From Rhabditoides inermis (taxonomy: Eukaryota; Nematoda; Chromadorea; Rhabditida; Rhabditidae), in NCBI GenBank assembly GCA_963966185.1, contig CAWZYM010000217.1, positions 906,501-970,500 of the forward strand: a stretch of 64,000 bases of DNA, given 5' to 3'. Every line of letters starts with the position of its first letter. The stretch's first letter is position 1. Positions 3,453 to 63,230 of the stretch are shown in pieces. The position numbers and the translations under genes are program-made. The notes beneath the pieces are model-generated. The model searched no databases. It was not told the origin of the DNA and saw only the letters and a list, made by a program, of their open reading frames with translations.

Positions 3453-3550
3453 GAGTGTGTGTTGTGTGTGCGTGAGAGAGAGAGAATTCGATTTGTTTTC
3501 ATGATAATAAAAAAAACTGATCAAAAATGCACTTCGCAAACATAAACGCA

Positions 3551-12179: not shown

Positions 12180-13535
12180 CTAGTTTCTTGATTTTCATTG
12201 AAGTGACTATACCCTGAGCCAGAGCGATAGTTTTCAATCTACCTTGCCTGAAGTTCAAAATACGGTGCCATAACCGTCTGCCTCTCTTGTTTTGCGCGCT
12301 ATTGCCCAGAGCTGACTCTCCGTCTTCTTCTGATCTACCCCACCGCGCGCAACTTATCGCAAGCATACCACTATAATTGTTTTCAAATTTATTTCAAGGG
12401 TAATTTCTCATTAGACGACATGTGGGAAGTGATACTGCCTGATTCAGTGCTACAATCTCATTTTGTCAGGTATCTGCGTCCGTTTCCGCCGGGAATCGTA
12501 GTCGACAGGGCACAAATGAAGGTGAGGCCTTGTTTTGTTTGTTCCTTCTCTTCCTTTCGACAGCAATTTGTCGATGGACTGATTGTGTGTATGTGTGCCT
12601 TGGCGTGAGTCACACGAATTTACATATTCACGTCGAGCTGATAGGGAGAATTATTTGTTGTTGGAAACGTACATAGGTACATATGTAGTCAGGTTGAAAT
12701 GGCCACTTTCTTCGTCCCAGGTGCTTGGAGCTTTAGCCGTTAGAGAAATACGCGTAAGGACGCAAGTTATGAAACGTTCGCAGATAAGTGATAAGGAGAT
12801 AAGGTGTGTGTGAAGTGTGATTTACAATCAGTTGGTTGTGACAACCTCTTTTGTGGGTGCTCGATTGATTTCGAGTTTTACTCTCTGTGGAAACTGCAGA
12901 ACAAATAAGCTGTGAAAATAAGAAAATGTCGTATTGGATCTCCGATTGGCGTGGTCAAATCCCCTGTCAAGTTGCAATATGTGTAATGTGCCGTGTAGAG
13001 TGATGTGTGAATCGGAAGTGGGGGTGTAAATATGAACGCACTGCTGCACTGCTCGCTAATCCACAGTTTACTGCGATCTATTTCTGGAATATGGAATTCC
13101 CGCTTTGTCGCCCTTTCCGAGGCCCTGATGAGAAACGAACTGTTGATTGACCGGCACAAACAGTGAAAGCGCCGCACATTGAGAATACAGCACGTTGTGA
13201 AAAAAGAGAAATTTCCGAGGTATACGATATTGTTCAGCTCGGCGAAGGCAACTACAATGTGATGTTCAACAACTGCGAGCACTTCGTCAAGTGGTGTCGG
13301 TACGGGAGCAAGTGCTCGGAACAGGTGGGACGGAATAAACAACTCATCGAACTACACAATCTGCAATATGAAGTTATGAGTTCAAAGGTTACGCTACCTT
13401 TAACGTTTTGTGTGTCTATCCCATTCGATCCCCATAGCCTTTCATTGCGGTTGCGCGTACGTTTGCCGATGTTTTCTTTTAATGTTTGTTTCCTTACGCA
13501 GCCAAATCGCCAAGCCCTTCGCATTGAAGAGAGAA

Positions 13536-13573
<38 letters not shown>

Positions 13574-16500
13574 GAAACACGGGAATTTCAGGAAGACATG
13601 CGCTCGGTAATTATCAGTAGTGAGTGAGAGAGGGAGTTAGTAGGCAAAGACGGTCTTTTGAAAATCTACTAGTAATCTTCGTGGCTTCGGGGTTGTTAAC
13701 AAGTATGCGATAGAATTTCGGAATGATTAGTCTAACGTGAAGACGTGTGGCCTGGGGTGGGGAGTCGACTCATCGACTCATCCAATTATCGCGCGATGGG
13801 CTGTATCTGTTCTGAACTGCTCAATGGCTGACTAGTTACTACTTTACTACTTTGTTACGTTGCAGAGAGTGTTTTGTGATGCTATGTGACTGTCTTGTCT
13901 GACCGGGCATCTTAATTTCCAGGTGCTCTCTTCGAGTGCGCCGTTAAGAATTTCTCGCTCTCTTCTCGTCTCATTCTCCATTCACGATCGCACCGTGAAT
14001 AGCACCCCTTGAAAGTAAAAAGGAAGTGCACATCCATCCCTCTCAAAGACCACTCGTTGTTGCGCGCTGCCTGCGCTTCAAGGATACACTCACAATGGGT
14101 GTAATAGTAATCCGATCGTTCGTTTTGCGACTTTAGTATGCACCCGCCGACGCCTTTGCCTTCTGACTCGATTTCTTTCTTACAGCAGATCGAATTTCTC
14201 CGAAACGTCAAGTTTAGCATTTTTGATTCGACTGAATCAAATATCTATAAAGGAAGACGCTTATTGAAGGCGATGAGATGGTGTTGTTGTGTGGGAATAA
14301 CTCGATTCCGCTCCCGACTCGCGACGACGGCTCTCCCGATGAATGTGTGAATCTGCAATCTAGGAGGAGGCTGGGAAAAAGAGGCGGTAGCGTCTCTCCA
14401 TGGGCTGATTAAGTGCAGCCGCGAAAGACCACCCAGAAAGTGGCCGAATTCCAAACACGGCACACTGCAAATCCCCCCTCTGCTCGCTTCTAGCCGCATT
14501 CGCGTTCTGTTTATGAGTGTGGGCCTGACAGGTTTTTGTGTGGATGGTCCCGCACCCTGCTCGGTTCCTTCCTTGCCACTCCTCTCCTCACAGCTTATGG
14601 CTGTTTTTGGACTGCCAATTGGCTTTGCCTCTCACAACACAGCACATAAATCGGAGAGAGAGAGAATTCGCCATAATGGCCCTCCCGACTGCAACTGAGT
14701 TCACGAAAAGGCTCCCGAGTGCACTCCATGGTCTGCTATTAACAAAGTACAATTACATAGTCATTACGGGAAGCGACGAACGTTCTCCCAGGAATATAAA
14801 TGTTGACGTGTGCACCTTTCTAACAAAGTTCACCGAGAGCACGTGTCGGTTTTTATATCTTTTGTCGTAAAGCGGTCTGTGATGCACTGCTTTGCATAGC
14901 ATATTTGCTTTTTGCGATGGCGTGGGGGAATACATACCCGAGGTTTTGCTAGAGAAAAATAGCCGTCTGGGAAAGAAGGGACGAAATGGCGAAACTTGTC
15001 GTCGTCGTCTTTGTTCTCTTCCGTGTTTGCACTTTGGGACAAGTCGAATTGTTCATGTTCGGTGAACTATCGGAACATGCAGGGTGAAGCAGAGGCAGAG
15101 GTTGAGAGAGTAGAAGGCGGAGAAATGGGATGAAGAAGGAGTAAGGGAGTACGGAGCAGTGTCGAGAGGGGCACTCTAGTACGCGGGGCAAGTTGCGGAC
15201 GAGAGGGTAGAGATGATTGTTGTGCAGACGAATGATGGCTTCGGATTTCGGATGCACTTGCAGGGTACGGAAAAAGCGAGAGCGAGTGAAATTTCTGGCA
15301 ACCTGGAAAATTCATCGCGATAAACTTTTGATGACGTCACGCGATGAATTTTCTTGCGATGAATTTTCTTCGCGATGAATTTTCATGTTTGTATTATTTT
15401 CCCACTGCACATCGGCAATTGCAATCAAAGTCACACATAATATTATGTTTATTTTGCATTGAATAAGCTAAGAAGACGATGAGGAAGATGCGCGTTGGTC
15501 ATCGTCATCATCTTCTGTCTATTCACCTCCAGGCCGCACTTTTGCTCTGCTCCGCCACTTCGTTCAGCAACTTCTCCGCCGCTGTTTGCGACAAATGGGT
15601 TAGAGGATCCATGTTCTACTTCGTTCTCGTTCTCGCCTGCCACGAAATGATCTATCGCGTCCACCGACACCCCCTCCACCTGTATCTCGTCTTCATCGAC
15701 TACGAGGACGCGTGGCCGTGCAACTCTATGCGTGTATATGGAGTGGAACCGGCGTATATCCGACTACTGTAGATGGTCTACAACACTGGACGAACGACGG
15801 TGCTGGTCCGAGGATCCATCGCTGACATTTCTGTTGAAAAAGGAGCTTGGCAAGGGTGTCCCTGCTATCCCTTCATCTTCAACAGCCGTCTACAGAAGAG
15901 TGGAGTTCAACTATACAACGGGACCTGCTTCGACATCGACGGGAAGAATCTGACTCATCTAGCCTACGCAGGCGATGTGGATCTGTTTGCCAAGTCGCCA
16001 GCTGCTGCGGAGAAAATGCTGAATGAAGTGGCGGAGCAGAGCAAGAAGTACGGAATGGAGGTGAATAGACAGAAGACGATGACTATGACCATCGCGCACC
16101 TTCCTCATCATCTTCTCCGCATCTTCAATGCAAAACACAGTATTATGTGTGATTTTGATAGCTATTGGCGATGTGCAGTTCTGAAAATAATACAAAAATG
16201 AAATTTCATCGCGTGACGTCATCAAAAGTTCATCGCGATGAACTTTATTCATCGCGATAAATTTTCTTCGCGATGAATTTTCCAGGTTGCCGAAATTTCT
16301 TTATATTTGTGAAGGATCACATATGTTTCACACAACTGGAGAATGCGAGTTATGTCCGGTCGATGGAATCACAGGCCCACATGTGTACTAGAGAATTGGA
16401 AGAATACGCGGAAGTGACATTCTTCGTCAGTATGTTCAGTATGTTTCCTTGGTCTGACAATGGACAATATACAAAACAAATGTTTTGGGTAAAATGCGAG

Positions 16501-16798
16501 AGACGAGAGGTGAGCAAGAATGTGATAACAAACAGTGTTTGGGCATAACATGTACTTCTACAGTCTCGACTCGAATAAAGGCTATGAAGACGAATGAAGA
16601 TCAATCTAATCATTTGATACATATTCCTATTTTGAGGCGACGCTGGCCCAGTCGGTGCTGCTGGGATCGGGTGCTCTCCTGCTGACTGGCAGTCTGTCGG
16701 CCGCACTCGGCACCGGAGTCGCCTTCGCAGCTGCCGCCACTGTGATAGGGGAGATGGTCGGCACCAAGATGAGCAGCTACTTCTCCTTCCTCCGATAG
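11055..16798 (+). CDS. LRAT/PLAAT-like NlpC-P60 superfamily protein with C-terminal hydrophobic tail
   Basis: Predicted exons: 11055-11117, 11375-11506, 11627-11705, 11772-11854, 11945-12012, 12470-12521, about 13220-13324 and about 16637-16798. The start [20 protein letters not shown] is followed by [12 protein letters not shown], the HWAVSIG block (first catalytic His), VVHIS (second His) and, in exon 7, [14 protein letters not shown], the LRAT-family block with the catalytic Cys. The final exon encodes a long hydrophobic region ([20 protein letters not shown] and on) before SYFSFLR and TAG, like the membrane tail of PLAAT/HRASLS enzymes. Such proteins are phospholipid acyltransferases or phospholipases at intracellular membranes. 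An insert between the His and Cys blocks ([20 protein letters not shown]) is longer than in vertebrate PLAATs. The 3.3-kb last intron contains a transposable element. The acceptor of exon 7 is my choice; an upstream one would add residues. Confidence 0.8.
12085..12178. repeat. (TA)n microsatellite, about 94 bp
   Basis: A pure run of alternating T and A inside an intron of the LRAT-like gene, flanked on both sides by tagctagt, so the whole locus is a perfect palindrome. Confidence 0.97.
12225..12375. repeat. dispersed repeat, copy 1 (second copy at about 18145-18275)
   Basis: Shared stretches with the second copy include aatacggtgc, aaccgtc, ctgact(c/t)tccgtcttcttc and tgat(c)tacc(c)ca, in the same order and orientation. 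No coding content. It lies in an intron of the LRAT-like gene. Confidence 0.6.
13325..15287. other. intronic sequence of the LRAT-like gene before the MULE-like insert
   Basis: About 2 kb with no convincing exon. It contains a short (GA)n at 13538-13570. One or more small coding exons may hide here, since the gap between the catalytic-Cys exon and the tail exon is large. Confidence 0.4.
15288..16300. mobile_element. Mutator-like non-autonomous element with long inverted arms and RT fragments (995 bp plus 9-bp TSD)
   Basis: The element runs 15297-16291. It starts GGCAACCTGGAAAATTCATC and ends with the reverse complement. It is flanked by a perfect 9-bp direct repeat, gaaatttct, at 15288-15296 and 16292-16300; 9-bp duplications are typical of Mutator-like transposons. 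The terminal part contains repeats of the type catcgcgatgaattttc and tgacgtca. Inside, the two arms are inverted copies of about 300 bp: the left arm read on the minus strand ([19 protein letters not shown], near 15485-15560) matches the right arm on the plus strand ([19 protein letters not shown], near 16050-16110). No transposase is present. Caution: gaaatttc is itself palindromic, but the direct match is 9/9 while the inverted match is shifted by one base. Confidence 0.8.
15600..16110 (+). pseudogene. non-LTR retrotransposon reverse-transcriptase fragment carried inside the MULE-like element
   Basis: The plus strand encodes [13 protein letters not shown] (RT motif usually FIDYxKAFD), a stop at 15769-15771, then [17 protein letters not shown] (equivalent to GVRQGCPLSPxLFN), [16 protein letters not shown] (the FADD catalytic box with one Asp replaced by Gly) and [11 protein letters not shown] (equivalent to NxxKTK). 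The stop and the damaged FADD box make it inactive. It resembles RTE/CR1-type domains. A second, partial copy lies in inverse orientation in the left arm. Confidence 0.85.
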
Positions 16799-18717
16799 GT
16801 GGGTACGAGAGGGAGAGAGGGAGAGTGCGAGAGAGGGGGGAAGAGACGACTCTTGTACGTTCTTCTAGCTTATGCGCATTCGTTAGGCGTCTTGTTGCCT
16901 TTGTCTCCCTGTCGAGTGGAGTTTACTTGCCACAAGGCAACATTACATTTCCACATTCACTTTGGCGCCTTTGCCCGCGCATAATTACCAGTTTTTGGGG
17001 CTCAGCGAGTTTGGTCAGGGATATATAATTGCCTCTCTGAAGGCGAGTGTTGATTGAGAGAGGGTCGAGCGATTCATCGGATAGGAATTGGAGAAAGAAG
17101 AAAAGAAGAGCACGTGAGGAATGGTTTTTTTTTTGCGAATAGCTGCGCGTCTGCGTTTTTGGCTTAGGTAGAGATTGATGAAGGGACAATGTGGCAATTA
17201 GAGGAAAGATTGTATAGATGGTCAGGAGAGGGATGCGAGCAGGGGATGTGTACCGAAGGGAGGAGTGACGCAAATCCTTTCAGGCGACTCGAGGCTCTCT
17301 CCCCACAGAATGTATTCGTCCCTGTTTATGCTCTCTTTTTCCCGGGTGATAGTTTGCTGTTTCTCGCCCTCTCTGAAAGTGAGACTTGATTGTGCGGAAG
17401 GGCTCTGCTCCCTCTCTCTCCGCCTGCTCTCTCGCCTCCTCCTCCTCCCTCCTCCTTCTCCGCCCAAAGTCGCCGCCCCTTCGACCTACGGAGTATCCTG
17501 TCCCCGCAACAGTCAACACCCTCTTTCCACTCTCCTTCTCTGATTGTCTTGATTTTGTCCTTTCAGTCTAACTTTATCGTTCCGTGTACAGGGGCAGGGG
17601 TTTCCATTTCTAGCAATCTACCAGTTCATTATATTTTTCTCGGGTTGTGTTGGTGAGAAATATGTACCGTGTATAGTGCTGTATCATAGTATTCTTTTTA
17701 GTTTTGTACATAAAATGTGCGATATTTTTGTAATTGTTGGTGTTTGAATTGTTCTTGGTTGGATTAAGACGTCGTCGATTGTTTTGTAAGAGAGAAATAA
17801 TTCACAGGATTCAGGATAGTAATTCTGTGTATGTTTTTCTCTCATTCTATGTTCTCTCTGTCGTTCGAACAGTTTACAAGTTACTGCTATTGCGGAAATA
17901 TTGATTTTTTTTGAATTTTGATTCATTGTTGGGCCCAATCTGGTAGTCCTGGAGCGGAGACACTCCTTCAGGTTCGGATCAAACGTGCAATCTGCAGGTA
18001 TGCACTACAGTATGCAATCCAATTTGGCCATGCATCGTCAATCGTTAGCTCACCTTACCGCGTGCCTTTTTCACTATTTATTTCCTGCGTGCGTCACCAT
18101 TGAGATTCAATTATGACCAGAAGGGTAGTACTTCGATAAACCTCGCTGGTATTTCGAATACGGTGCTACAACCGTCCAAATGGCAACAGTCAACTACCCC
18201 CTCCCCGAGAACTGACTTTCCGTCTTCTTCTGATTACCTCACACCGCGAAAATTCACGAAAATATAACCATACTGGGATAATGGATAAATGTCATTAGTC
18301 TGTCTACATCTACATGGAAGTATGTTGTCCTGTTATTTTCTGCTGCAAAGTCTTACCGAGAGACAATTGGATATCCTATGCTTTGTGCAGAGAGAGCCAT
18401 GTTTTGCTGCTGATTTCGTCACGTGTCTGTACACAATGCTAAATTTGTGTGAGTGGAAGATTGTCCGCTGACTGCAGACGAAAGCATCCTATTATCACAC
18501 ACCCCGATCCGATTCAGATTTACCATCCAAGCAGCTCGTTTGCGACAACAAAGGCCCGACATTTCGTGCATTTCGCCTTGACTTTGTTGCGTAGGAAATT
18601 ATTTGCATACTAGAACGTAACGTCTTTCTCTATGTAACTTTGTTTGTGTTTCGATGTTAATTGATCCGAGCTCACTAGCATGTTTCTTTTTTTCTTTTCT
18701 TGTTTTCATGCTCGTGC
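16799..18717. other. 3' flank of the LRAT-like gene and intergenic DNA
   Basis: No gene recognised. Pyrimidine-rich stretches occur at 17400-17470. The second copy of the dispersed repeat is at 18145-18275. Confidence 0.4.
18145..18275. repeat. dispersed repeat, copy 2 (first copy at 12225-12375)
   Basis: Same orientation as the first copy. Shared blocks include aatacggtgc, aaccgtc and ttccgtcttcttctgat. A faint related start (cttcgataaacc) also appears at 41340. Confidence 0.55.
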
Positions 18718-19230
18718 TGGACGACTAGAGTTGTGTCGATTAAAGAAAACGATTAACGATTAATCGGTTACTCGATCGAAATTTCAATAATCCGGTTAAC
18801 GATTAATCGTTCGATCGAAACTTTTGTGAACGGTCAAACAAATAATCGATTAATCGAAAGCCGATTAAATAATCGATTTTCGATTAAAAACAATTTTCAT
18901 AAAGTTGCTCAAAAAGGGCTTTCAAACGATTTCTTCGTACAAAAAGTAAACGAAAATCAGCTTTTGTCATTCCCAATGAAGGTTTTAAGCTAAATTTCAC
19001 GGAATTTGGTTACTTTTTTTGTTATAATATTTGAAAAACTCGATTAACCGATAAACGATTAATCAATTAATCGATAAATCGATCGAAAGTTCGGTTTACC
19101 GGATAACGATTAATCGATCGATCGAAACATTCGTCGATCGAACAAACAATCTTCGATTAACCGATTAATCGATTAATTTAATCGAAAATTGTTCGACCGG
19201 TCGATTAATCGACACAACTCTATGGACGAC
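18718..19230. mobile_element. hAT-like MITE, 497 bp with 8-bp target-site duplication
   Basis: The element 18726-19222 begins TAGAGTTGTGTCGATTAA and ends with the exact reverse complement. It is flanked by tggacgac at 18718-18725 and 19223-19230, a perfect 8-bp duplication as expected for hAT transposons. Both ends are filled with dense, imperfect copies of cgattaatcg, a palindrome, for about 150 bp each; the middle is plain AT-rich DNA. No transposase frame. Confidence 0.9.
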
Positions 19231-19496
19231 ATAACAGAAAATACCTGTATTAGCCAAGTCTATTTATTTTCCTTTCCTTCCGCATTGTGTGAACTGCTCC
19301 AGTTGAGTCTCTCATATCTCTTCCCCCTCAACATGGGTGGTCATGCATCATGCGCTTATCAAATCATCTGCCTGGGATTCACAGATTCGAATCCTTCCTC
19401 GTTCCTCGTTAGATGGACACAAGCAACGCCAATGTTGGCTGTTGTTTGTTCTGATGTCTGATGTCGTTGAGCGTGTCACTTCATAACATAGCTTCC

Positions 19497-19552
<56 letters not shown>

Positions 19553-20080
19553 GTAGGCCTTCCCGAGTTACTGCCTGTTTTTCTTCTCACAACAGCACGA
19601 CAGCCCACCCTTCCCACTGATTGGCTGTGTCAGTGTGTGTGGTTGTGGTCGTGTGTTTGTATTTTTCTTGTCGAATGTGGTTTTTGTCTTCGGTGAGTCT
19701 TCTCCGCTCTCTCCGTTCACTGGCACTGATGAATGATAATTAGTTCCTGCATTCTCATTTTGTGGTGGTATTTTCGTATTGAATAATGAATACACGTCAC
19801 CTTTCTTTCACGTTGTTACCAGTAGCTTCTCCCTCTCTCCTTCCGCCCTTTCCTCCTCTGTTTGTGTTGTTTGTTTTGTTCACTCTCGTGTAACTTTTTA
19901 CAAATGTTTTCATGACGCGTCACCCAGATGTGCAGATCTATTTCTAACTTCTAACATTTCGCATTTTTGAATGATATATCTTGAGTTATATTCTCTGTAA
20001 ATAGTGAATAACATTATGTTTGCATCGGGTTAAATAGGCCAGCTGGAAAAGTTAACTTATACTCTAATTTATCGCATTTG
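19231..20080. other. intergenic DNA upstream of the GPCR gene
   Basis: No coding region recognised. A (CT)n tract spans 19499-19546. An acceptor-like gcag at 20080-20083, nine bases before the GPCR start codon, suggests a 5' untranslated exon upstream or a trans-splice site. Confidence 0.4.
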
Positions 20081-20091
20081 CAGTGTCAATA

Positions 20092-21752
20092 ATGGAGAAT
20101 GGCTCCTTTGCGGGGCCTTCCGAAGACGAAGTCGAATTCGATCTATACGAACTCAGCTGGATCGAGCTCGTGAGACTAGCGATTTAGCGATTTGTAGATT
20201 ATCGATTTTCTTTCAGCTCATTTGGTGCGTGTTGTACTCGATTATTGCTCTGATGGCAGTCGTGGGAAATTCCCTAGTCATCTGGGTGACTCTTATTAGG
20301 TAAGAGATCAATACAATAAACATATAGGCCGGCCCCCCGGTTCATCGTACGGCAGTTCCCTTTCCGAATATTTCCCAGACACCTTTCGATGGCATTATCG
20401 CTGGCCCAAGTTCATTCGGCAGCAGTGATTTTTCGCTTGGCGGTCTCATTGCGCGTTCTTCGCAGCGCAAGCGCAGGCTAATGACTTCATTAGAATTATA
20501 AGTTAGATGCGAATGCGCCAACGAGAGCGGTCGGATTTGGAAAATAGGAATTTTTTCGCTACAAACGCTTGTTTTCCGATTTTTGATAACTATAAACTAA
20601 ATTGTATAACAATTGATAACGCCGAAAACCGCGTATTCCTAGAGTGACAAACTATTTTGAAAATAACTTCCTTCGGAATTGAGCTAGAGGGCTGAAATTT
20701 GGATATGTTGTGTAAAAGACCTATCCCAAGGATCGCTTGTTTTCTCGATTTTTCGAAAATTGCTCATTGTTCAGTAATCCAGGACAAAAACCGAGAAATG
20801 CCGTTGAAAATGCATCTTTTTCTCGTCATTTCCTCATTGTCTGGTTCGATCGGCGATAATGCCGTACGATGAAAATGGGGGGTAGCCTATATAACAATAT
20901 GAAATTCTACAACGATTGCAGGTTGCGATCACGAAGTATCACCACTTATTTCATCATCAACCTCGCGTTTGCGGATCTTCTCACGGGAATCCTCGCTATC
21001 CCATTCAAATTCCAGGCGGCTCTCTTCCAGGTATCACCATCCTCTTGTTCCTTTTTTCTCTCAGCAACTCAATTTTCTCTATTGTCTATTGTTATGCAGC
21101 GCTCCAAATCGGGTTTCGCTTTTTTGGTTTGGCGAACGTGCATTACTCTCCTCAAAGTCTTATAATATAATAGAGTTATCACAGAGTGCTCGTTTCTAGT
21201 TTTTATTTATTTCGTCATCATAAATCCACTTATGTAGTGCCTAAAGTTTTATTCCATTTCCACATGCCGTATGGATAGGGAAAGGACGAAAAAGAAGGTG
21301 TTTTGTTGTATGCAATATTTGTGATTAGTAATATGTAATATGCAATACAAAATGCAATCATACGGTCAACATGCTAGAGAGTTGCACCCGAGTAAGACGA
21401 CTCAGTAACGATTGAGTTATGTTGTTTTGAGACGAGGCACAATACCGCTGGGAGGAATGAGATTATGGTTGACTGGTGCAAGACTGCTGGGTGTCAAATC
21501 AAATACAACGTGACACGTTGCACTCTATACGCAGTAGAGCCCTTACTATGAACAGTCTACTCATAATCAGAAGTCGATAATCAACCAAATTGCAGGAGTG
21601 GTTGCTGCCGTGGTGTCTGTGCCAGATGGTGCCCTACGCGGAGACTGTGTCCCTCTCCGTCTCTGTATTCACACTCACTGCCTCTGCCATACACGAGTTC
21701 CGCACTGTGTTCTTCCCAAAACACGGACGACTAACTGCCAACAACGCCAGGT

Positions 21753-49786: not shown

Positions 49787-52700
49787 TCACATGATAATGT
49801 CCGGCTCGGGCACGTTGGCCGAGATGGCCTTGTGCGGCAGCACGCGAGCGCCGTTCAGATACAACTCGTCGTGCACGACCTGGGAGAGAGGGAGTAAACA
49901 AACAAACAAACAAAATAAACCAACAAACAAACAAGTAAACAAACAGCTGACTCACCACATCGTCGCCCATCACACACGTGTTTCTCGGCGCGCACCCAGC
50001 GGCCGATCGTGCACTTGCGACCGACGATAGACTGCTTCACCTACAACCACCACACAGCCTCTCTTTGCTCTAATAAAAACGACTTGAATACAATCTGTCC
50101 GAATAGACGGCGGACACCTGTACCCCCTGCCGTGTGTTCGTTCACGTACCCATGAGTGTGTCCGGATGACCGAGTCGGAGAGGATGGTACACTGTCGCAG
50201 ACACACGCCGTCCTCGATACGCACCCGCGGACCGATCACCTACACACATGCATCAAACTCACGAAACATGCTGTTTTCATCATACCACTATTAACTGACA
50301 TCATACGTTATTAATTTAGGAGTACCAGTCAATGTTAAACACTCAACATCAACAATCATCAGAGAAACGAAAAACGAACAACAAAAAAGCGATTGGAACT
50401 CACGACGTCGGGTCCGATTCTGCAGTTGGCGCCGATCTCGGCGGTGGATCGACGAGAACATTGCCGTGGATGTAGTCTCCGGACGCCAGTTGGGCAGGAG
50501 CAGACGAGCGCTTGTGGCGGAGGAACAGAGACATGCCTGCAACACAACGGCTTCGATCTCGGTACACATGCAGACATGCTTTCATGAGAGAATTGGATAA
50601 AATGGGCGAAAGGGAGTGAAAAGGAGAAAGGAAAAGAGACACGCACCGGTGAGGAAGTCCTTGGGCTGTCCCACGTCCATCCAGAATCCAGGCAGCACAA
50701 ACGCAAACAGGTTGTCGCTCATCGCCATAGACGGGAAGATCTACACGGCAGTCAATGAACATGCAGCAGAACAAGACATGCGAGTACAAACCGCCCCCAC
50801 CCACCTCCTTCTCGATCGACGTGGGCTTGAGGTGATGCGGTCAAGGATCGACGGGCTGAACACCTACGTAAAGCAATAGTTTCTTGGAATTGCAAGCGTG
50901 AATCTAATTGATCGTTAATGGCAATAAATCAGCTTTCTATCGTGATGTTCGAAATAAAATGCATCCCGATGGTGGCATCGGCGCAATTTGTCACGATGAT
51001 ATTTTCATTCACAATGCGCTGGACAAATGTGAGATCTTTGCTGACTATTTTGAATCAGTTTATCGCGATTCCATCACACCACCTGGTGCTGACTTGCCTA
51101 AACTACCACATTCACTTGATATGATTGACATTACCCTTCTCGAAGTTCATAAAATCATTTCCAAACTCGATTCCAAATATAACACTTCTCCAGATGGTAT
51201 TAACAACGTGTTTCTGAAACGTACGGCAACTTCCATATCGGTTCCATTGACGATTCTTTTTGCAATGTCCATGTCTGTCAGAGAAATCCCATCTATTTGG
51301 AAAGAAGCTTGGGTGAAACCATTATTCAAAAAAGGCGCACGTGAATCTGTCTCAACTACAGACCGATTTCTCTCACATGTAGCATCTCTAAAGTTATGGA
51401 AAGAATATGCGTTCAGCAGATTACAAAATACTTAGAAAAGCACAACCTACTCTCCAAAAAACAATTTGGTTTTCCGCAAAAATCGATCCACTAATGCACA
51501 ACTAATTGAATGTCATATGAATTGGTGCAAGCATATTTCATCTGGTTCCGTAATAGATTGCATCTATTTCGACTTTAAAAAAGCATTTGATACCATCAAC
51601 CATGACCTTCTTTTCAAGAAACTTGACGCTATCGGTATTCGCGGTAATGCTCTCGGCTGGATAATTGAATTTCTCAAAAATCGCAAGCAATCTGTTATGA
51701 TTGGATCTAAGCGTTCCTCACCGCGCACTGTTAATTGTGCGTTCCACAAGGTTCGTGTCTTGGACCCTTGCTGTTCAACATTTTCATAGATAACATTCCT
51801 GATAATTTACCAGATGGCGTTTATTATGCGCTTTATGCAGACGATTTGAAAATTTACTTTCCTTTTGATTTTACCAGTACTTCTGCGAAGTCTATTTTCC
51901 AAAAAGCCATTGACATAGTCGCAGCATGGTCAGCTTCATGGGGACTTCAGATATCCACTGAGAAAACTCAAATATTGCATGTAGGCAAGCGGAATCCAAA
52001 GCACACTTATATCGTCCACGACTCAACTCTCAAACCAGTAGATTCTGCAAAGGATCTTGGTATTCTCCATGAGTAATAACTTATTGTTCCGTGATCATTT
52101 CAAACAAATAATTCAACAAACTCTGTATTCTATAAATGATTTTTTTCGGACATACAAAACACGAAATCCCACACTACTGATCACCGCATACACAACCTAT
52201 TTTCGCTGTAAATTAGAATATTGCACTGAGCTCTGGAACCCTACTGATGTTGCTTCTGTAAACCTAATTGAGAACATACAACGCTATTATACTCGTCGTG
52301 TGTGTCAGCGTATCGGGCGCAGCCTATCATATCCTCAACGCCTTGAGCTTTTCAATCTTCAAACTCTCGAAAATAGACGATTCTTGAATGATGTCACATA
52401 CATTCACAAAGTAATCCACTCGAAAACTATATTGGACTATCATGGTCTTTTTGCAATTATTCCATCTCGTACTCGTGGCTCTCATGAATTTAGAATTGTT
52501 CCATCATTTGATCACACAGGCCGTACCAGCACTTTTTTAAGCAGAACCTTCGCAATATGGAATGCGCTTTCTCGTGACCTAATCTCCATCAATGATCCCT
52601 CTATCTTCAAATCACAACTCTCTACATTAGATCTCATGCCACCTAGCAAATTGCGCAACCTATAGAGAGCTCTCCCCCCACTTCCTTTTCCATGTAATAC

Positions 52701-52910
52701 TATGTGATTATGTTCGTGTTCAATATCATTGAAACCCCGTTTATACCTGCCGTTTGTATTGCTCACTTTTTGTTTATAATTGCGTTTTTTTTTTTTTCCA
52801 TGTTATCGGTAATAAACCTATCTATCTATCTATCTAACACGTACAGGCCCGCGTTGATCTTGTTGCCCACGTACTCCTACAACATATGCCGCTTCCCTCA
52901 CCCTCCGCTT

Positions 52911-52954
<44 letters not shown>

Positions 52955-53730
52955 CTAACCTGCGGTTTCTCGACAAACTCGGCGATCTTGCCGCTCTCCT
53001 CGTCAAACACCACCACTCCATATTTAGACGGCTCCTCCACCTCAAATTAATCAATACTATCACTCGGTTCCCTCCTTCCCCGCACCTTGGTGACGGCGAT
53101 GGTGCCCTCCTTGCCGTGCTTTCTGTGGAAGTCGATCATCTGCTGGAATGGGAAGTCGCAGATGACGTCACTGTTGAGGACGAAGAAGGGGTCCAAGCCG
53201 TCCAGGTACTGCCTGAAATCGATTCGGATAAAATATATAACGGAAGTAAGTTAAAATCAAAACCACTCAAATTTGATAGACACAAGTTTTTTGTACCATT
53301 CATCACACAAAACATTCAAAACGCAGACATAATGATTACAGATGGCTTGAAAACGATAATCTCTCATAATACTACAGTTCGAAGTGATTTCCAATCGCAC
53401 CGACCTGGCTAGGGCGAGGGGGTCCGGCGGTGCCGAGCGGCTCTTCCTCAAGGGAGAAGTGGAGGCGCACGCCCAGCCTCTCCGCGTGCTGAGACATCTC
53501 CTGCTCCAGCTGCTCCGCGCGGTAGCTGCACAAGGGCCTTCTCCAACCGATGTCTCCCTCCCCACTCACCTCACAGCCAGCACCACATCGGTGACTCCGA
53601 CCGCCGCGAGTGCCTCCATCTGGTGCAGCATCATCGGCTTGTTGGCGAACTCCACCAGCGGCTTGGGCTGGGTGAGCGTCAGCGGGCGCAGCCGCGTCCC
53701 GTACCCACCGACCAGAATCAGCGCCTTCAT
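49787..53730 (-). CDS. GMPPB: mannose-1-phosphate guanylyltransferase beta (GDP-mannose pyrophosphorylase)
   Basis: Makes GDP-mannose from mannose-1-phosphate and GTP in the cytosol, the donor for N-glycans, GPI anchors and O-mannose. The start is [20 protein letters not shown] (53730), with the nucleotide-binding GGxGxRL motif. Further blocks: [112 protein letters not shown] and the left-handed helix repeats ([26 protein letters not shown]), ending [20 protein letters not shown] and PEPDIIM. Exon order and length (about 360 residues) match the family. Three single-base shifts interrupt the frame: five G instead of four at 53418-53422, one base missing near 50446, and TTT instead of TT at 49981-49983. 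They are probably sequence errors. One intron (50864-52840) consists of a retrotransposon. Confidence 0.93.
50864..52840 (+). mobile_element. Jockey/CR1-like non-LTR retrotransposon exactly filling a GMPPB intron
   Basis: The element runs 50864-52835 on the plus strand, antisense to GMPPB. It ends with a poly-T/AT region and (TATC)n at 52812-52835. A 5-bp repeat, aacac, is found on both sides (50859-50863 and 52836-52840). It is 5' truncated: the first codons, [14 protein letters not shown], already belong to the RT upstream region. The RT is broken into four frames at 50908-51435, 51480-51750, 51735-52070 and 52060-52665 with motifs [57 protein letters not shown] (catalytic box intact) and the C-terminal [20 protein letters not shown] and [12 protein letters not shown]. 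Frameshifts and a stop make it inactive as read. On the minus strand its borders read TAC|gtgtta and acgtag|GTG, a legal intron. Confidence 0.92.
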
Positions 53731-55300
53731 CCTAAAACGGCAGAGTGAACGGTGTAGGAAAGGGCGAGATTATTCGAAATGCGCAGTCAAACAGCGAGCA
53801 TGGATGCGTTTCTTTGTGGAGTGGCAGAATCGCCCCGTGGCAGAGAGCGTGCGCGAATGGCGAGTAGGCATTTGATTCGATAGGATGAATCACAATAGGG
53901 CCACGTAGACATCGCATACACAGCCGGGCACACACACCACGCACGCAACCTGCCTCGTCCACTAGTGCAACTGATAAGCACGCATGAACAGAGATAATGC
54001 AACGCCACGACCATCCCACTCTGCCTCATCACACGCAATTCGTGAATCATTAGTGTGGCGTGATTGAAGGTACAACCCTCAAACGGCATAGTAGTGAGAG
54101 AGAGAGGGAGGGAGAGAGAAGAGAGAGAGTAGTGTGTATGGTGTGTATACAAATATGCCAACTAGCGCGTGTATGGAGCTGCGTGCGCGGTCACTCTTAG
54201 AAACGGCACTCATCAGCCAGGGGACGAATGGCACTCGCAATCACGGGAGGCGATTGTGTCTGTTTGAACAGGAAGGGCGGGGGGTTGGAATGTACCCATA
54301 GCTGTATCCCGTTATGGATTGATCCACATCCACACACAACACTCTGCAGACATTAGGTCACTTTCGTGCGGCCGCTAGATTTCATTCATTCACAAATCCG
54401 AAACGGATATATCATTAGCTCTCGTCTGCTTGGCTACGCACGCACACTCGCAACAACATGTTCTTCCGTGTAGCCATCGCAGACGAGGCTAGCACGCCCC
54501 AGATACCATCGCCCACATCCGACCATTGAACTAATCCCTAGATGAACACAAACAACGCGAGAGAGTGCACACGGTGACAGACAGGAACACAAACGATGTG
54601 TCGGAGGCGAAGAGAGACAATAGAGAGCGTGGCTAAACACATTTGATAGTGTTGGAACGGTTCTATCGAGATCTGGCAACATCTGCGAATCAAGTTTCAT
54701 ACCACGAATCACATTGAATGTATTATTATAATCAAAATTCATCAAAATAAAGCGCCAAATTTCAAATTCTGATAATTCCTTTATTAGTGAAAGAGACGTT
54801 AGTTCAAATGCACTACGATCATTCCTCGCGGAATCTTGACACTACGATATTTTATTATATTTTCGAAAATATTTTATCAACTTCGCAGATGAGTTTGCTT
54901 CTTCAGACTGATTTATGATATAGATATATTTGTGTTAGCCCGTATTCGCACTTCGAACTGCAAATGTTGCATCGTCATCCTGAGACACGCCCGCGCTCGC
55001 CCATGTTGTTGTTTGCATGCTTTTCGACACATAATCATTGATTGCCCACGTTATGTGATATTCTACCTGTCCTCGATTTCGTATCCTTTTCTACGCCGAG
55101 CTTTTCCCGTTTGTTGGTGGGCGCAGCGGACTCGCTACCACTCCCGACACCGCGTCTTTTGTTGTTCACAGTGCGCGCGGATCGAATCGCCTATATACTC
55201 TTCTCTTTTCCACTACCCACGCATATTCCTCTATTGATTGGATTGCCACCTCACCTACTCTTTTTCCGGTCCGGCGGCGGCTTCACTCGGGTCCTCCGGA
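53731..55300. other. intergenic, divergent promoters of GMPPB (minus) and DNAJC25 (plus)
   Basis: About 1.6 kb without a recognisable gene. Contains a short gagag stretch at 54095-54130. No element or RNA gene was recognised. Confidence 0.4.
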
Positions 55301-57179: not shown

Positions 57180-57520
57180 CGTTTTAAAAAATATTATGTT
57201 CATCACGACAAAGAGTTTCGTAGTATTAAATTCCTCTCCCTCTCCGCGGTTTCGAAATAATCAACATAATGTAGAAAAGGTGTTCATCGAGACTCGCCCG
57301 CCAGGAAACCGACGACGACGACGACGACAGCGTCCGCGCGTCTTAACACAACATACCCAACCCAACCCCCCGCATCTCCATACATCCGCATTCCTCACAT
57401 CACCCTGTTGTCCACTCATTTGGAACTCATTTGGAAGTGGCCACTCCTCATTTGCCTCGCCGCCTAATGCGGCGCGGTCTGTGAATAATCACCCTGTCGC
57501 CGTCCGTTCCACCCTATCCA

Positions 57521-58048
57521 GTGTGTCAGCGCTCGCCTGCCTCGACTACTCTTCTGCTGTTCAGCCCTCTGCTCCTGCCACTCTCCTTCTCTTTGCGACT
57601 CTCCCCGCCGCCTACGCTGCAGCAGCCAGCAGCAGCCACCAACTGCCCCGTCGACACTTGCCACTCCGGAGGTAACCACTATCGATCAGTTATCGATTGT
57701 TGCTCCATTTCAGGGAAGGAGGAGATGTTGAGTGTGCGGAAGTGGGACGGCGGTCAGATGTGTCAGTTCAAGGCGTATCTCAAAGAGACGGTCACTCCCG
57801 TCGCCGGTTGCGTCTTCAAGCCCAACCGGATGCCTACGACCACTACCGCTTCCTCCACCATTCAAGCCGTCACCGCATCTGCACACTCCACTCCCGCCTC
57901 CACAGAAGGCCCCCGCCGAGTCTGTCTCTGCGGCCACTCACACTCTCTGCCCTGGCTATTGCTGTGGCTGCTTTCTTATAGTTTTCGCCTCCACCCCCGC
58001 TCAATTGTCAAGTGTACTTTAGTCAACTTTCTTCTTAGTGTACTTTAG
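57521..58048 (+). CDS. possible small secreted or GPI-anchored protein, unrecognised
   Basis: Two exons, up to 57671 and from 57714, join in frame at CHSG|GKEE. The first exon is hydrophobic (TLLLFSPLLLPLSFSLRL) with no clear ATG in this frame. The second reads MLSVRKWDGGQMCQFKAYLK, TVTPVAGCVFKPN and a Thr/Ser-rich stretch. In this frame the tail is LPWLLLWLLSYSF and beyond; in the +1 frame it would be LTLSALAIAVAAFL and stop at 57981, which looks more like a GPI-attachment signal. Given the many single-base shifts nearby, either may be right. AATAAA at 58080. No family recognised. Confidence 0.4.
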   Translation: MCQRSPASTTLLLFSPLLLPLSFSLRLSPPPTLQQPAAATNCPVDTCHSGGNHYRSVIDCCSISGKEEMLSVRKWDGGQMCQFKAYLKETVTPVAGCVFKPNRMPTTTTASSTIQAVTASAHSTPASTEGPRRVCLCGHSHSLPWLLLWLLSYSFRLHPRSIVKCTLVNFLLSVL

Positions 58049-58808
58049 TCATTTGTCTTGTACGTGTAATGGCAGGTTTAATAAAGATTTTGAAGCTTAA
58101 TTTTATGATTAGTTTTTATCACTGCGACTTGGCGTGGAGGAGTGACTGTGACTTGCATGTGAGTGCATGCATTGGCTTTATGTTCCCGACATTTCTCCAG
58201 TTCAAATCGCGCCAGCACCTTTCGTACACCATGACAAAGCGGCCCGCGCCAGCCGTCTGCGTCTCTCCCCTCTCAAACACTTCGCCCACTTACAGTACTC
58301 GAAAGTAAAACAAAGCAATCAAACTGAACGTTATAAAAAAAAAACGTTTTTGTTAACCCAAAGTCACAAAAAAAATTACGAATTACTCACAAACACGTTT
58401 ATTATCTAAAACACAACAAGGGACGGGTGGAACCACGATTGACGTACATATTCAACAATAACATGGGGGTTGTAGAACTTGCATTAGATTATATAAATAG
58501 TGAGAAAAATGGAAATGAACAAGGTAGGGTGGCGCCAGAGCAGCTGAAAAGCACGCATTTGATCATTATCCCACTCCTACTATTCCCCTACAGTGCTTAG
58601 CTTACCTTTGAAGTCTAAACTCAATCTCACACACTACTCGAAATATGGACAACGCGCAACACTTGGAAACAAATTTGACCAACCTGTCGCACACTAACCT
58701 TTAGGGACTATCGCAGACAGCTACAGCAATACTGCGAAATTCGTGAACTCATACTAACATACTGTCTACGGAACAAACAAAATAGTTTAGTTACCTGTTG
58801 GTTAGACT
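58049..58808. other. 3' flanks of two convergent genes
   Basis: AATAAA at 58080-58085 belongs to the upstream gene. A donor-like gtaagt on the minus strand at 58808 suggests that the ZNF207 transcript continues with further exons here, but no coding part is recognisable. Confidence 0.4.
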
Positions 58809-58830
58809 TACCTCGGTGGAGATCTCCGCT

Positions 58831-60285
58831 TCAACCACACTCACTGACGGGGTGGTCTGAATCAATACGAGGGTCGGTAGCCCTGGCTTGATGACGCTGC
58901 TCGTTCATCACGCGCATCGCACGACGTTCCTCCTGCAACGTGTCCAGTACGTATGGTGAATACAGGAATACTTGCCACTCACCAGCGAATAGTTGTGGTC
59001 TTCGGGGTGCATAATCCGAGTTTTGCCAGCGTTCTTGCTGGAAGTGGACACAGGAGGTGCGGCACTCGCAGATGACGGCATCGGAACCGCACTGATGTGA
59101 TCTGTCGGCGCTGAGAAAATGCATTTTTAATATGTTTTAATACAACACAACTTACGTGCTCGACTATCGTCGTTCTGATATCCGTATCCACTGGGCCCTC
59201 CCGCATTCGCTCCGTAAACTGGCATGTTCCTGTTGGTAGCCCGCACCATTCGCTCCATTGTACGAATTCGCCGACTAAAATTTAGTTGCGAAAACAGAAT
59301 AAACACGATTGTTTTACTAACCATGTTATGTGCGTAAGGCATGGGTGCTTCCTTGACAGGCGCTGGAGCGTGAGAAGGCGCAGGTGGTCCTCCGCCGTAT
59401 CCTCCATGGGGTGGTAGCCACCTGGACCGGATGACGGTGGGCCTCCATACGGAGGCTGTTGCGGTGGTCCGCCGGAAGGACGAGGAGGGAACATACCAGG
59501 CGGCATCGGTGGCATTCCTCCCGGTCCTCCCATGAACGGGGGAGGCATAGCGGGACGTCCGCCAGGACCGGGCGGCATCGGGCCGGGAGGCATTGGGGGG
59601 CACTGAATGATGTATGATTACATAGTTCTGATTATAGTTTTTCATTAACAACATGTACTCACTTCCACCAAATGCGGCATTCCAGGAAAACCACCAGGCG
59701 GGAACGGAGGAAAGCCACCAGGCACGGGGATAGACGACGGCGTAGGAATGTCACTCATGCGAGGCATCTTTGATGCAGGCTCGTCCTCTGAAACATTACA
59801 ATAGATATCATGATAACTATGTATATAAAACTAACCAGGAATTTCCACGTGTCGCTCCATAAGGCATTCCCTGCATGCCGTAAATCTCGATTTCACAAGA
59901 ATCCCGTCCGGGAAGGGCTGAAGGAACCTTGTCGATCGTCTCTTTGTGAACCTTAAAAATAAAAATGGGATCATTGCTAAATTGTATTGATAATATATCA
60001 TATGATAGCAATACCTGCATGCAGTGGATAGCGAGACCCGGTCCGGAGAAAAGCTTCTTGTGGCACAAATGACACTTGAAGTGCTTCGCCTTCTGATGCT
60101 GCACTAGAATCTTGTCGTCATCAAATTCGCGGTTGCAGTACCTGAACGACAGGATCATAACGCTTCACACATTTTACAAAATATCATCTTTGAGAACTGG
60201 TAATTGCAATATCAATCGCCATATATTGTGATATTCCTACTCACCAGCACCACGGCTTCTCGACCTTCTTCTTTTTGCGACCCAT
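58831..60285 (-). CDS. ZNF207: ZNF207/BuGZ homologue, C2H2 zinc-finger microtubule and BUB3-binding protein
   Basis: The start [20 protein letters not shown] (60285; split after CW at the intron 60240) continues [40 protein letters not shown] and [12 protein letters not shown], nearly identical to human ZNF207 over two C2H2 fingers. EIYGMQGMP follows, then a Pro/Gly/Met-rich low-complexity region (59.3-59.75 kb) as in BuGZ, and [20 protein letters not shown], the conserved C-terminal block. BuGZ binds microtubules and BUB3 in mitosis and spliceosome factors in interphase. The GLEBS motif that binds BUB3 was not identified with confidence. Three frame breaks occur (59861-59862, 59409-59412 in a G run, and about 58855), all single base. 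Removing the last extends the frame to the donor at 58808. The 5' part of the gene faces the 60.3-62.3 kb spacer. Confidence 0.9.
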
Positions 60286-61487
60286 CTTGAACACTAGATC
60301 TGAAATAACACATTGAAACAACACTTCTTACAAACAACGAGCGAGGCAACTAAACATAACTAAACAACTAACATAACAAAACAAAATCGAAACCGAAATA
60401 GTGGGCGTAGCTAGCGTTCAAAATTATTAGCAATGCATGCACACTTGATTCCGCATATTTGTCACTTGGAATATGTATCATTTAACTGTTACATTGTTTG
60501 ATGGATATTATAAATTTTAAATCGAAAAATCGAAAAATACTTTGTTCTTGCAGCATTATAAAAATTTCTCAGAAGTTCCTTTCTTTTCTTTTTTTTCCCT
60601 TTTGAAATATCAAACGTAGGCAACGGACTATGAGCAACCGTATAAGAGAAGATCAGACAACTATAAACGAGGAAGAAATAGATTTTTCTAATTTTTTTTC
60701 GTCGATTTCGGCAATATGGTGAGCTCCAACTACGGCGACAGGATCCAAGTGACGAGGAGAGTATATTAGCTGGTTGAGCGGCGTTTCCAACATAGACAAT
60801 AGACAGAGAATGAGACTGACTGGAGAGGAAAATTTTCCGAATGGCAACCCTCTCTTATCATCGCCGTCTTCACTCTGTGAACATCTTGATCACATAATGC
60901 GAGTCCTGTTGTATTTGAATATGTAATGTCTTTTTTACTGTTTTCCGAAAACTTCATATTAGTGGGCGCTAGGCGCTTTCACCGCCGTTCACACTTTTCA
61001 AGTGATCATACACAATGAAACCAAACAATGTCGGTTGTTATTGGCATAGCCACCAAATAAAGCCGACTTCATTTTTATTGCTCAACGGTTCGTTCCGTCT
61101 GGCATGCGGAATGGGAAAATGATGTGTAAGAAAAAGATTGAATTGTGATTATCTACAGGTTGTGCATAGATTGACAGATGATAGATGATGGGTAGGGTGG
61201 TGATCTGATCTGTATCCGTACATCCCCGGAAACTGGGCTGTCCGTTGCACTTTCTCTGCTCCTCTCCGCTTACGCACTATCTCGTCACTCCCTCACCTTC
61301 CCAGTTCGAACTGAAATGAACCGTGTGGAAACTCGAATGAATGATGCACTAGCACCGTCTTCGTACCATTTTTTTTAAATTGAGTATCTCTTTCTTCATA
61401 TTCAGTTGATATTGTGACGGTTTGATAAGGTTGATCAAGGGACGCCCCCTTCTACTATCACTAACATTTCAGTGTGCGGCGTGTTTC

Positions 61488-61531
<44 letters not shown>

Positions 61532-62003
61532 CACAATATTAATCTCACTCCCTATTCCGTAGCGTGTTGTGATTGTGATCACTATCCACAATAATGTTAC
61601 AATGTACTCCACAACCTGCAAAAATCACATGCTCCCATTGTCATTATTCCTTCGAGTGTTTGATACGCAAGTACGCATAGTACTCGATTTCTCAGTGTCA
61701 CATATAAACTGTCTGCAGTCTAGACACTTTCAGTTTTTCTACACAAACCCCTCGCATGACCGACTTCTCTTCAGGTCTATATAAATAGAGAGAGTGGCTT
61801 CTCATTATACGCGATACCCGATCCACTGATCTGCTATCTGCTCTTCTTCGATTCCTTGAACTGATTCCAACTTTGAATTCCTTGGCATTTTTCTTCGCCT
61901 CTGTTCTTCGCGTCCTTCCATTCCTTCAGTTTTGTGTTTTCTTCCCGCATCGAATACTTATACGCCGAAAAATGATATTTTCGCGCATATTGTGCTTGTC
62001 ATG

Positions 62004-62057
<54 letters not shown>

Positions 62058-62279
62058 CCCCTCTGTCTGTCTCTCTCTCCCGCAGCCGCCGCTCTCTGAT
62101 TCCCTATCATTCGTCACCCGATCTGCGAACCGTCTGGCTTGTTTTCGATCCGCGTGGTGGTTTGGATCGGACTGCTTCCGTCTCCCCTTCTCCTACTCGG
62201 CTACTCCGCATTTCTCTGTCCGCCCGCGCGCTTCCTCGTGATGTGTGTTCGCGTCCCCTGCCCTACCAGTTGCTTGTAG
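60286..62279. other. intergenic between ZNF207 (minus) and the 62.3-kb gene (plus)
   Basis: About 2 kb. AT-rich in 60.4-60.7 kb. (CT)n tracts at 61492-61527 and 62008-62053. A TATA box at 61778. Open frames here have no recognisable domain. Confidence 0.45.
61778..61786 (+). promoter_or_regulatory. TATA box upstream of the 62.3-kb gene
   Basis: TATATAAAT followed by agagaga. It lies 494 bp before the predicted start codon, so a leader of about 460 bp, possibly spliced, is implied. Confidence 0.5.
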
Positions 62280-63230
62280 ATGTCGTGTCGGGACGACTCT
62301 ATGCGTGTCACCGTGCCGGTGCTGTCCGATCCGTGTGACCGCTCCGCCCCGCCCGCCCTCTTCCAATTCGCCCTCTCCGCTAAGGTCATCTACGACCAGG
62401 CACAGCGCCCGGCCTGCATACAGCTCAACCTGGTGAGTTCCTTCCATGTCATCTTCCGATCAGTCACCCTTTTGCCCCATCCACTCCGCGTCCCAATTTC
62501 CGTCCCGCGCTCGCTTCCTTTTCGATTCCCCCCATCTCATCTACGTATCCCCAGTCGTGAATGGATCGAAATACGGATCCGATCCGTTCAACTGATCACT
62601 GACCGACACACAATGAATTCTTACCGTAGCCATTGACAACACTTTCAGGGTGTCGAGGGATGGTCGTCTCCGAACCCGCCAGCACACCTCAACGACATCC
62701 CCATCAAGATCAACATTCCCTACGGCACTGACGTGGCGTTCGCGAGGTGAAACACACGCTGTCATCGCTCCTTCTCCCCTTCCCTCCATTCTCAGTGTCT
62801 CACTGCTCTCTTGCAGACCGGCTCGCGCGGACCGCCGCCCGTCCAGCTCTTCCCTGCCGGTGAACAGTCCGGTGCGGCACTTCCCCTCGCTCACCCCGCC
62901 CTCTCTGCCGCCGCCCCGCATGCCCCTCACCCCCGCGCAGGCGCTGTCCCTCGTGCAGATGTGCGGCGCCCCCACCCCCTCCACCTCCTCCCTGTCCAGC
63001 GCGCCCCTCTCCCTCCCGCCCCTGCCCGGGTTCACTCCCTCCCAGCTACTCGCCCAGCTACAGACACTACACAAGATGAAGGCAGAAGGTAAGGAAGGTA
63101 ACAGCATGGAATATTGTTTTACCCCACACTTTTCAGAATCCATTCCTACGACGGCATCCGAGCCGACCCAGTCGCCGCCCGTCGATTCCGCCATGTCGCC
63201 CTCCGTGCAGCCACCCGTCCGAACCACTCC

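Follow-up and report, generated by a model that had tools for sequence, protein, structure and literature searches.

The GMPPB gene and its interrupted exon

Within the analysed stretch of Rhabditoides inermis DNA, a window of 64,000 nucleotides, the gene for mannose-1-phosphate guanylyltransferase beta (GMPPB) lies on the minus strand at 49787..53730 and contains nine ordinary introns of 44-192 nt in addition to an insertion. The gene model comes from aligning the locus, with splicing allowed, to P0001, a Nippostrongylus protein. Sequence comparison makes the identity of the encoded protein unambiguous: the top listed protein match (among the best 120 listed) is 83% identical over the full length, and human GMPPB (7d72_K) is matched with an E value of 5.3e-163. 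With 83% as the highest identity among these 120 listed matches, none is similar enough to derive from a transcript of R. inermis itself. Immediately 5' of the start codon, at 53731-53738, stands gttttag/g, which we take to resemble a trans-splice acceptor (here and below, a slash marks a splice junction or the insertion point).

One coding exon of GMPPB is split into a left half of 36 nt (52841..52876, minus strand) and a right half (50805..50863, minus strand) that ends in ...PTSIEKE and carries one indel in the window sequence. A preliminary description of this DNA had stated that the codons on the two sides of the insertion are contiguous in homologues. In an alignment of 24 GMPPB homologues, in which the query row was joined by hand across the insertion, the codons for NKINAG-x-Y/[VIFM] are indeed contiguous and gap-free in all 24, and the tyrosine Y175 is invariant in the query and in every homologue. 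The same description held that splicing at the insertion restores the reading frame exactly, and the spliced aligner, which allows GT-AG introns only and was supplied with no site, likewise picked an intron from 52840 to 50864 in phase 0.

GMPPB was found once in the assembly. A protein search for a second GMPPB returned six exon matches, all at the window locus, while DNA searches for a second gene or an empty allele gave one match only for the left flank and one full match for the right flank, the other 111 right-flank matches corresponding to a repeat stretch of about 50-70 bases in the query. In a homozygous strain that requires the gene, some functional splicing must therefore occur. PRP8 is present on two contigs that closely resemble each other (C50, 29000-48000, and C51, 6400-25000; L046-L049), with 32 introns on the first, which ends early at an N run, and 33 on the second. 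The PRP8 pair would represent either uncollapsed haplotypes or a recent duplication, and it suggests that the assembly holds some haplotypes apart. Heterozygosity for the insertion in GMPPB is thus plausible.

A young LINE copy and its junctions

The interruption at 50864-52840 consists of a truncated LINE (non-LTR retrotransposon) and one copy of a 5-bp duplication, all within the GMPPB exon. The LINE occupies 50864..52835 on the plus strand, antisense to GMPPB; it starts within ORF2 (codons LRKAI...), and a (CTAT)n tail from 52817 closes its 3' end. These coordinates, the truncation at 50864 and the tail bear out the first description of a 5'-truncated antisense retrotransposon in the coding exon of GMPPB.

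Further copies were sought in the organism's own assembly (172,641,834 bases in 599 contigs). With the insert as query, 41 matches were retained, including the window and two pieces of one split copy (40 scored among 529 first-look candidates), and 24 of the 41, the window again included, run from query base 1 to past base 1955. One copy, L003, has an open ORF of 981 amino acids with matches to RVT_1 (E 2.8e-39) and Exo_endo_phos_2 (E 5e-14). The fetched copies share a common 3' end and differ in their 5' truncation points, starting at element base 1 (and beyond), 48, 85, 89, 266, 335, 390, 452, 662, 710, 726 and 860. Endonuclease and reverse transcriptase domains in ORF2, together with variable 5' truncation and a shared 3' end, mark the family as a LINE. 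Protein relatives at E<=1e-100 number three only, the best being 87% identical, and the label "Jockey/CR1-like" given to the insert is a resemblance, partly checked here through the Pfam domains and these three relatives.

Several features of the other copies were also observed. Four pairs (L013/L014, L016/L017, L018/L019 and L020/L021) have identical flanks, three of the four lying on one contig each; they represent stretches that were duplicated or assembled twice, not independent insertions. The copy L024 (G000:C85:50337-55917) is interrupted by about 600 bp, and seven bases of the element occur twice at the break, possibly through a nested insertion. The 5' end of the LINE contains tandem CATTCCCTCGCGT-like units in varying number (L025, about 3700-3780; L028, about 4058).

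As had been noted in the preliminary description, AACAC stands on both sides of the window copy. On the 5' side of the element it lies at 50859..50863 (plus strand), where the gene-strand form GTGTT supplies the opening bases of the right half-exon. On the 3' side it lies at 52836..52840 (plus strand), where GTGTT gives the candidate donor GT (52840-52839); position 52836, an A, is possibly the final base of the LINE tail instead. Element, AACAC and coding sequence meet flush on both sides, without a spare base. Of the 23 full-span copies besides that of the window, seven (L002-L008) were read on their 5' side, and all seven carry CTACGTAAAGC, with the same sequence upstream. Since these copies read on past the truncation point of the window copy, the TAG bases of the candidate acceptor are the element's own; the base preceding this TAG is C, compatible with target and element alike. 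The earlier statements that no intron sequence was left over, and that the duplicated GTGTT provides the donor and the truncated element the acceptor, are thus upheld, with GT derived from the duplication and AG from the LINE.

Target duplication is not supported as a strong trait of this LINE family. Among 16 distinct LINE sites, including the window, flanks matched over at least 5 bp in just three (one with three extra bases at the junction), compared with 7 of 240 mispaired flanks (0.029) that served as the control. This survey dropped four copies that share their flanks with another copy, along with copies not followed to their 5' end, and a rearranged piece was trimmed in L012. At the window site, the case for a duplication comes mainly from the reading frame, as one GTGTT is surplus and a single copy gives Y-V-F-S as in relatives, which two copies would not.

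Compared with L002 and L003, the window copy has no substitutions in 1,953 aligned bases, while it differs by two, three, three and three substitutions from L004, L006, L007 and L008, respectively, and by four from L005. Given the identity to two copies over 1,953 bp, the LINE insertion is, on this measure, very young.

Splice-site strength and competing RNA products

The candidate intron (50864..52840, minus strand) is 1,977 nt in length and reads TAC/gtgtta ... ttacgtag/GTG. Its splice sites were scored against 42 introns of the same genome, 33 from PRP8 (contig C51) and nine from GMPPB, with the candidate excluded; the weight model thus derives from two genes and takes no account of enhancers, branch points or long introns. 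The candidate donor scores 0.17 bits, below all 42 yardstick donors (leave-one-out minimum 3.43), and 32% of the 3,708 GT dinucleotides on the gene strand score at least as high. The acceptor, at 3.48 bits, is acceptable and within the range of the genome: four of the 42 yardstick acceptors are as low or lower, and 7.9% of the 4,462 AG dinucleotides on the gene strand reach its score. Summed, the exact pair amounts to 3.65, compared with 8.16 for the weakest real pair among the 42. In addition, yardstick introns measure 42-192 nt (median 52), so that the candidate is ten times as long as the longest of them. The insertion therefore has GT-AG ends at the frame-restoring position, as a U2 intron does, but a donor and a pair strength outside the range of the genome as gauged by 42 introns of two genes. 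The preliminary description had called it a complete spliceable intron. The GT-AG pair is present, but "spliceable" outruns the evidence, and by these scores and the length, efficient clean removal from RNA appears doubtful.

The coincidence of GT-AG ends with frame restoration is also to be expected at a certain rate by chance. In simulations of 40,000 insertions of this element for each orientation and duplication length, an exact-restoring GT-AG pair arose, with a 4-bp and a 5-bp duplication respectively, in 3.0% and 3.4% of antisense insertions and in 2.3% and 2.8% of sense insertions. Pairs scoring at least 3.65 made up 1.1% and 1.4% in antisense and 2.0% and 2.3% in sense orientation (4-bp and 5-bp), and pairs matching the weakest real one 0.4% in antisense and 1.3-1.4% in sense. 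As about 3% of simulated antisense exonic insertions have both properties, GT-AG ends with frame restoration are in themselves no evidence of splicing.

Other RNA products of the locus can be scored on the same scale, where "in frame" is judged at the junction and the downstream indel in the right half-exon shifts all products alike. Four nucleotides upstream of the exact donor is the competing donor CCT/gtacgt (52839..52844, minus strand; intron start 52844; 2.81 bits), and a competing acceptor, ...tacgtaggtgttcag/CCC (50856..50870, minus strand; last intron base 50856), scores 4.10 bits. Joining donor 52844 to acceptor 50856 gives a sum of 6.91 and an in-frame product that has lost YVFS, while donor 52844 with acceptor 50864 (6.29) and donor 52840 with acceptor 50856 (4.27) are out of frame. 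Skipping of the 36-nt half-exon reaches far higher sums, 14.94 with acceptor 50864, in frame and with 12 residues lost, and 15.56 with acceptor 50856, out of frame; the donor used in skipping scores 11.47 bits and is itself a member of the training set. Use of a donor at 52766, within the LINE, yields sums of 8.51 and 9.13 and leaves a stop. Finally, transcripts that retain the LINE would read ...NAGLYVLDR and then an in-frame stop, four codons in.

Origin of the insertion and comparison with known systems

The reading that we consider probable, with moderate confidence, is that of a recent and probably polymorphic exonic LINE insertion with chance splice dinucleotides, from which exact splicing is at best a minor outcome. 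A LINE would have been copied into the GMPPB coding exon, presumably through target-primed reverse transcription that left its 5' end truncated, in antisense orientation to the gene and with duplication of 5 bp of the target. The GT-AG pair would then be a chance product, with GT supplied by the target and AG by the truncation point, and the candidate donor is likely too weak to be used efficiently. Most RNAs made from the insertion allele would probably be mis-spliced, above all by skipping of the 36-nt half-exon, or would retain the LINE, in which case the in-frame stop is expected to lead to nonsense-mediated decay. The allele probably segregates, or is tolerated by way of a minor, exactly spliced product.

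A functional newborn spliceosomal intron, in which 52840-50864 is excised exactly and GMPPB works normally, is unlikely but keeps an appreciable chance. Exact restoration of the frame, an acceptor of acceptable strength and the presence of the insertion in the sole GMPPB found speak for it; furthermore, introners that take the 5' splice site from the duplication and bring their own 3' site are described (PMC9860276), and weak sites are reported to be common in new introns at the start (PMC2809761). Against it stand a donor below all 42 of the yardstick, a pair far under every one of them, a length ten times the longest, and competing outcomes with higher scores. In its evolutionary form, which we regard as rather unlikely, this reading has the LINE becoming an exactly spliced GMPPB intron in one step, its 5' splice site created by the target duplication and its 3' site by the point at which reverse transcription happened to stop, with nonsense-mediated decay protecting the allele until the weak donor grows stronger. 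If exact splicing takes place, the locus offers a datable, single-event case in which an animal gene gained an intron from an autonomous-type LINE and in which the source, the target and the age can all be read; it would also test whether decay of unspliced RNA lets weak newborn introns survive. If it is false, the GMPPB insertion is an ordinary insertion allele.

It is improbable that the GMPPB on this contig is a decaying pseudogene, or that the junction is an assembly artefact. This alternative draws on four frameshifts in about 1.08 kb of GMPPB coding sequence, compared with none in PRP8 on either contig. However, the window LINE copy, free of substitutions relative to L002 and L003, has eight gap columns relative to them (five indels of one base each, plus three additional bases in a T run), and a neighbouring J-domain gene, presumably DNAJC25, has an indel at its HPD motif by reading of its frames. 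We read the indels in GMPPB, the LINE and the J-domain gene as probable local consensus errors, and a pseudogene judged from the frameshifts is less likely since the LINE copy shows indels without substitutions. A duplication, a 3' tail and a 5' truncation would be unexpected in a chimera, and no second GMPPB was found in the assembly. Other repeats of the window (57300-63200 and 12500-21500) proved useless as a gauge of consensus errors, being at most 93% alike among the matches listed (at least 200 bp, off-locus). The stretch at 12500-21500 contains several older repeat families, inverted pairs included, whose longer listed genomic copies are about 77-93% alike, and a tandem array with a 171-bp unit (13.5 copies, 94% matches) lies at 3549-5839.

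Splicing shifted by 4 and 8 nt, from donor 52844 to acceptor 50856 (ttcag/CCC), is quite improbable: the pair is stronger than the exact one (6.91 versus 3.65) and in frame at the junction, but it still falls under the weakest of the 42 real pairs (8.16), and the protein without YVFS would lack the invariant Y175 and so probably be a poor enzyme. Entry of the LINE into a pre-existing intron at this site, mostly lost later, is very improbable and was rejected on the flush junctions. GMPPB is intron-dense, but the element borders directly on the duplication at one edge and on coding sequence at the other, with zero spare bases, and such a history would require a deletion that ended exactly at the exon edge around a substitution-free element.

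Introns born from transposons are already known as a kind, and the GMPPB case is, judged by its sequence, an exonic LINE insertion of very recent date, with a weak, frame-restoring GT-AG pair that is probably due to chance. Insertions of the DNA transposon Tc1 are reportedly spliced out of C. elegans pre-mRNAs, as the title of a 1996 paper by Rushforth and Anderson has it. As in that case, the host is a nematode and a mobile element lies in a gene that spliceosomal removal could rescue; unlike Tc1, for which the title states removal from pre-mRNA, the GMPPB element is a LINE and known from DNA alone. Among the papers listed by a search of open-licence literature, partly aimed elsewhere, none dealt with this insertion or with a GMPPB intron derived from a LINE.

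Introners are described as families of many introns, with median lengths of 30-654 nt by family, that mostly fit DNA transposition; some families show a short duplication, which in some provides the 5' splice site (PMC9860276). The GMPPB insertion resembles them in its exonic position and duplication-derived 5' site, and a spliced introner product is likewise said usually to keep the mRNA length (PMC9860276). In contrast, GMPPB contains a single 1,977-nt LINE insertion with its AG at a private truncation point, and the splice site is not at a fixed element end, one of several arrangements described for introners, as all seven full-span copies read through the AG point. In a second model, insertion of a transposon at AGGT, a protosplice site, yields a splice dinucleotide from the duplicated target (PMC3443670). 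The likeness to GMPPB is that the duplicated target gives a splice dinucleotide and the coding sequence would be unchanged if spliced (PMC3443670), whereas the GMPPB target is TAC/GTGTT rather than AG/GT, leaving the donor without exon-side consensus.

A study of intron gains in nematodes also links bursts of gain to transposable elements that carry splicing signals (PMC9169325). For new introns in Drosophila, weak sites and a reliance on nonsense-mediated decay are reported, with retention at 2.6% compared with 5.3% for conserved introns (PMC2809761), and by analogy this low retention may keep a newborn intron in GMPPB alive as a reading. The human NF1 gene points the other way: 13 exonic Alu, L1 or poly(T) insertions are described there as causing mostly exon skipping (6 of 13) or use of cryptic splice sites (PMC3219598). 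These disease-causing insertions are recent, were made by the L1 machinery, lie in coding exons and include a 5'-truncated L1, which brings them close in kind to the GMPPB insertion, although RNA was examined in NF1 (PMC3219598) and the GMPPB case is known from DNA only. By analogy, the exon skipping and cryptic sites of NF1 would favour mis-splicing as the fate of transcripts from the interrupted GMPPB exon.
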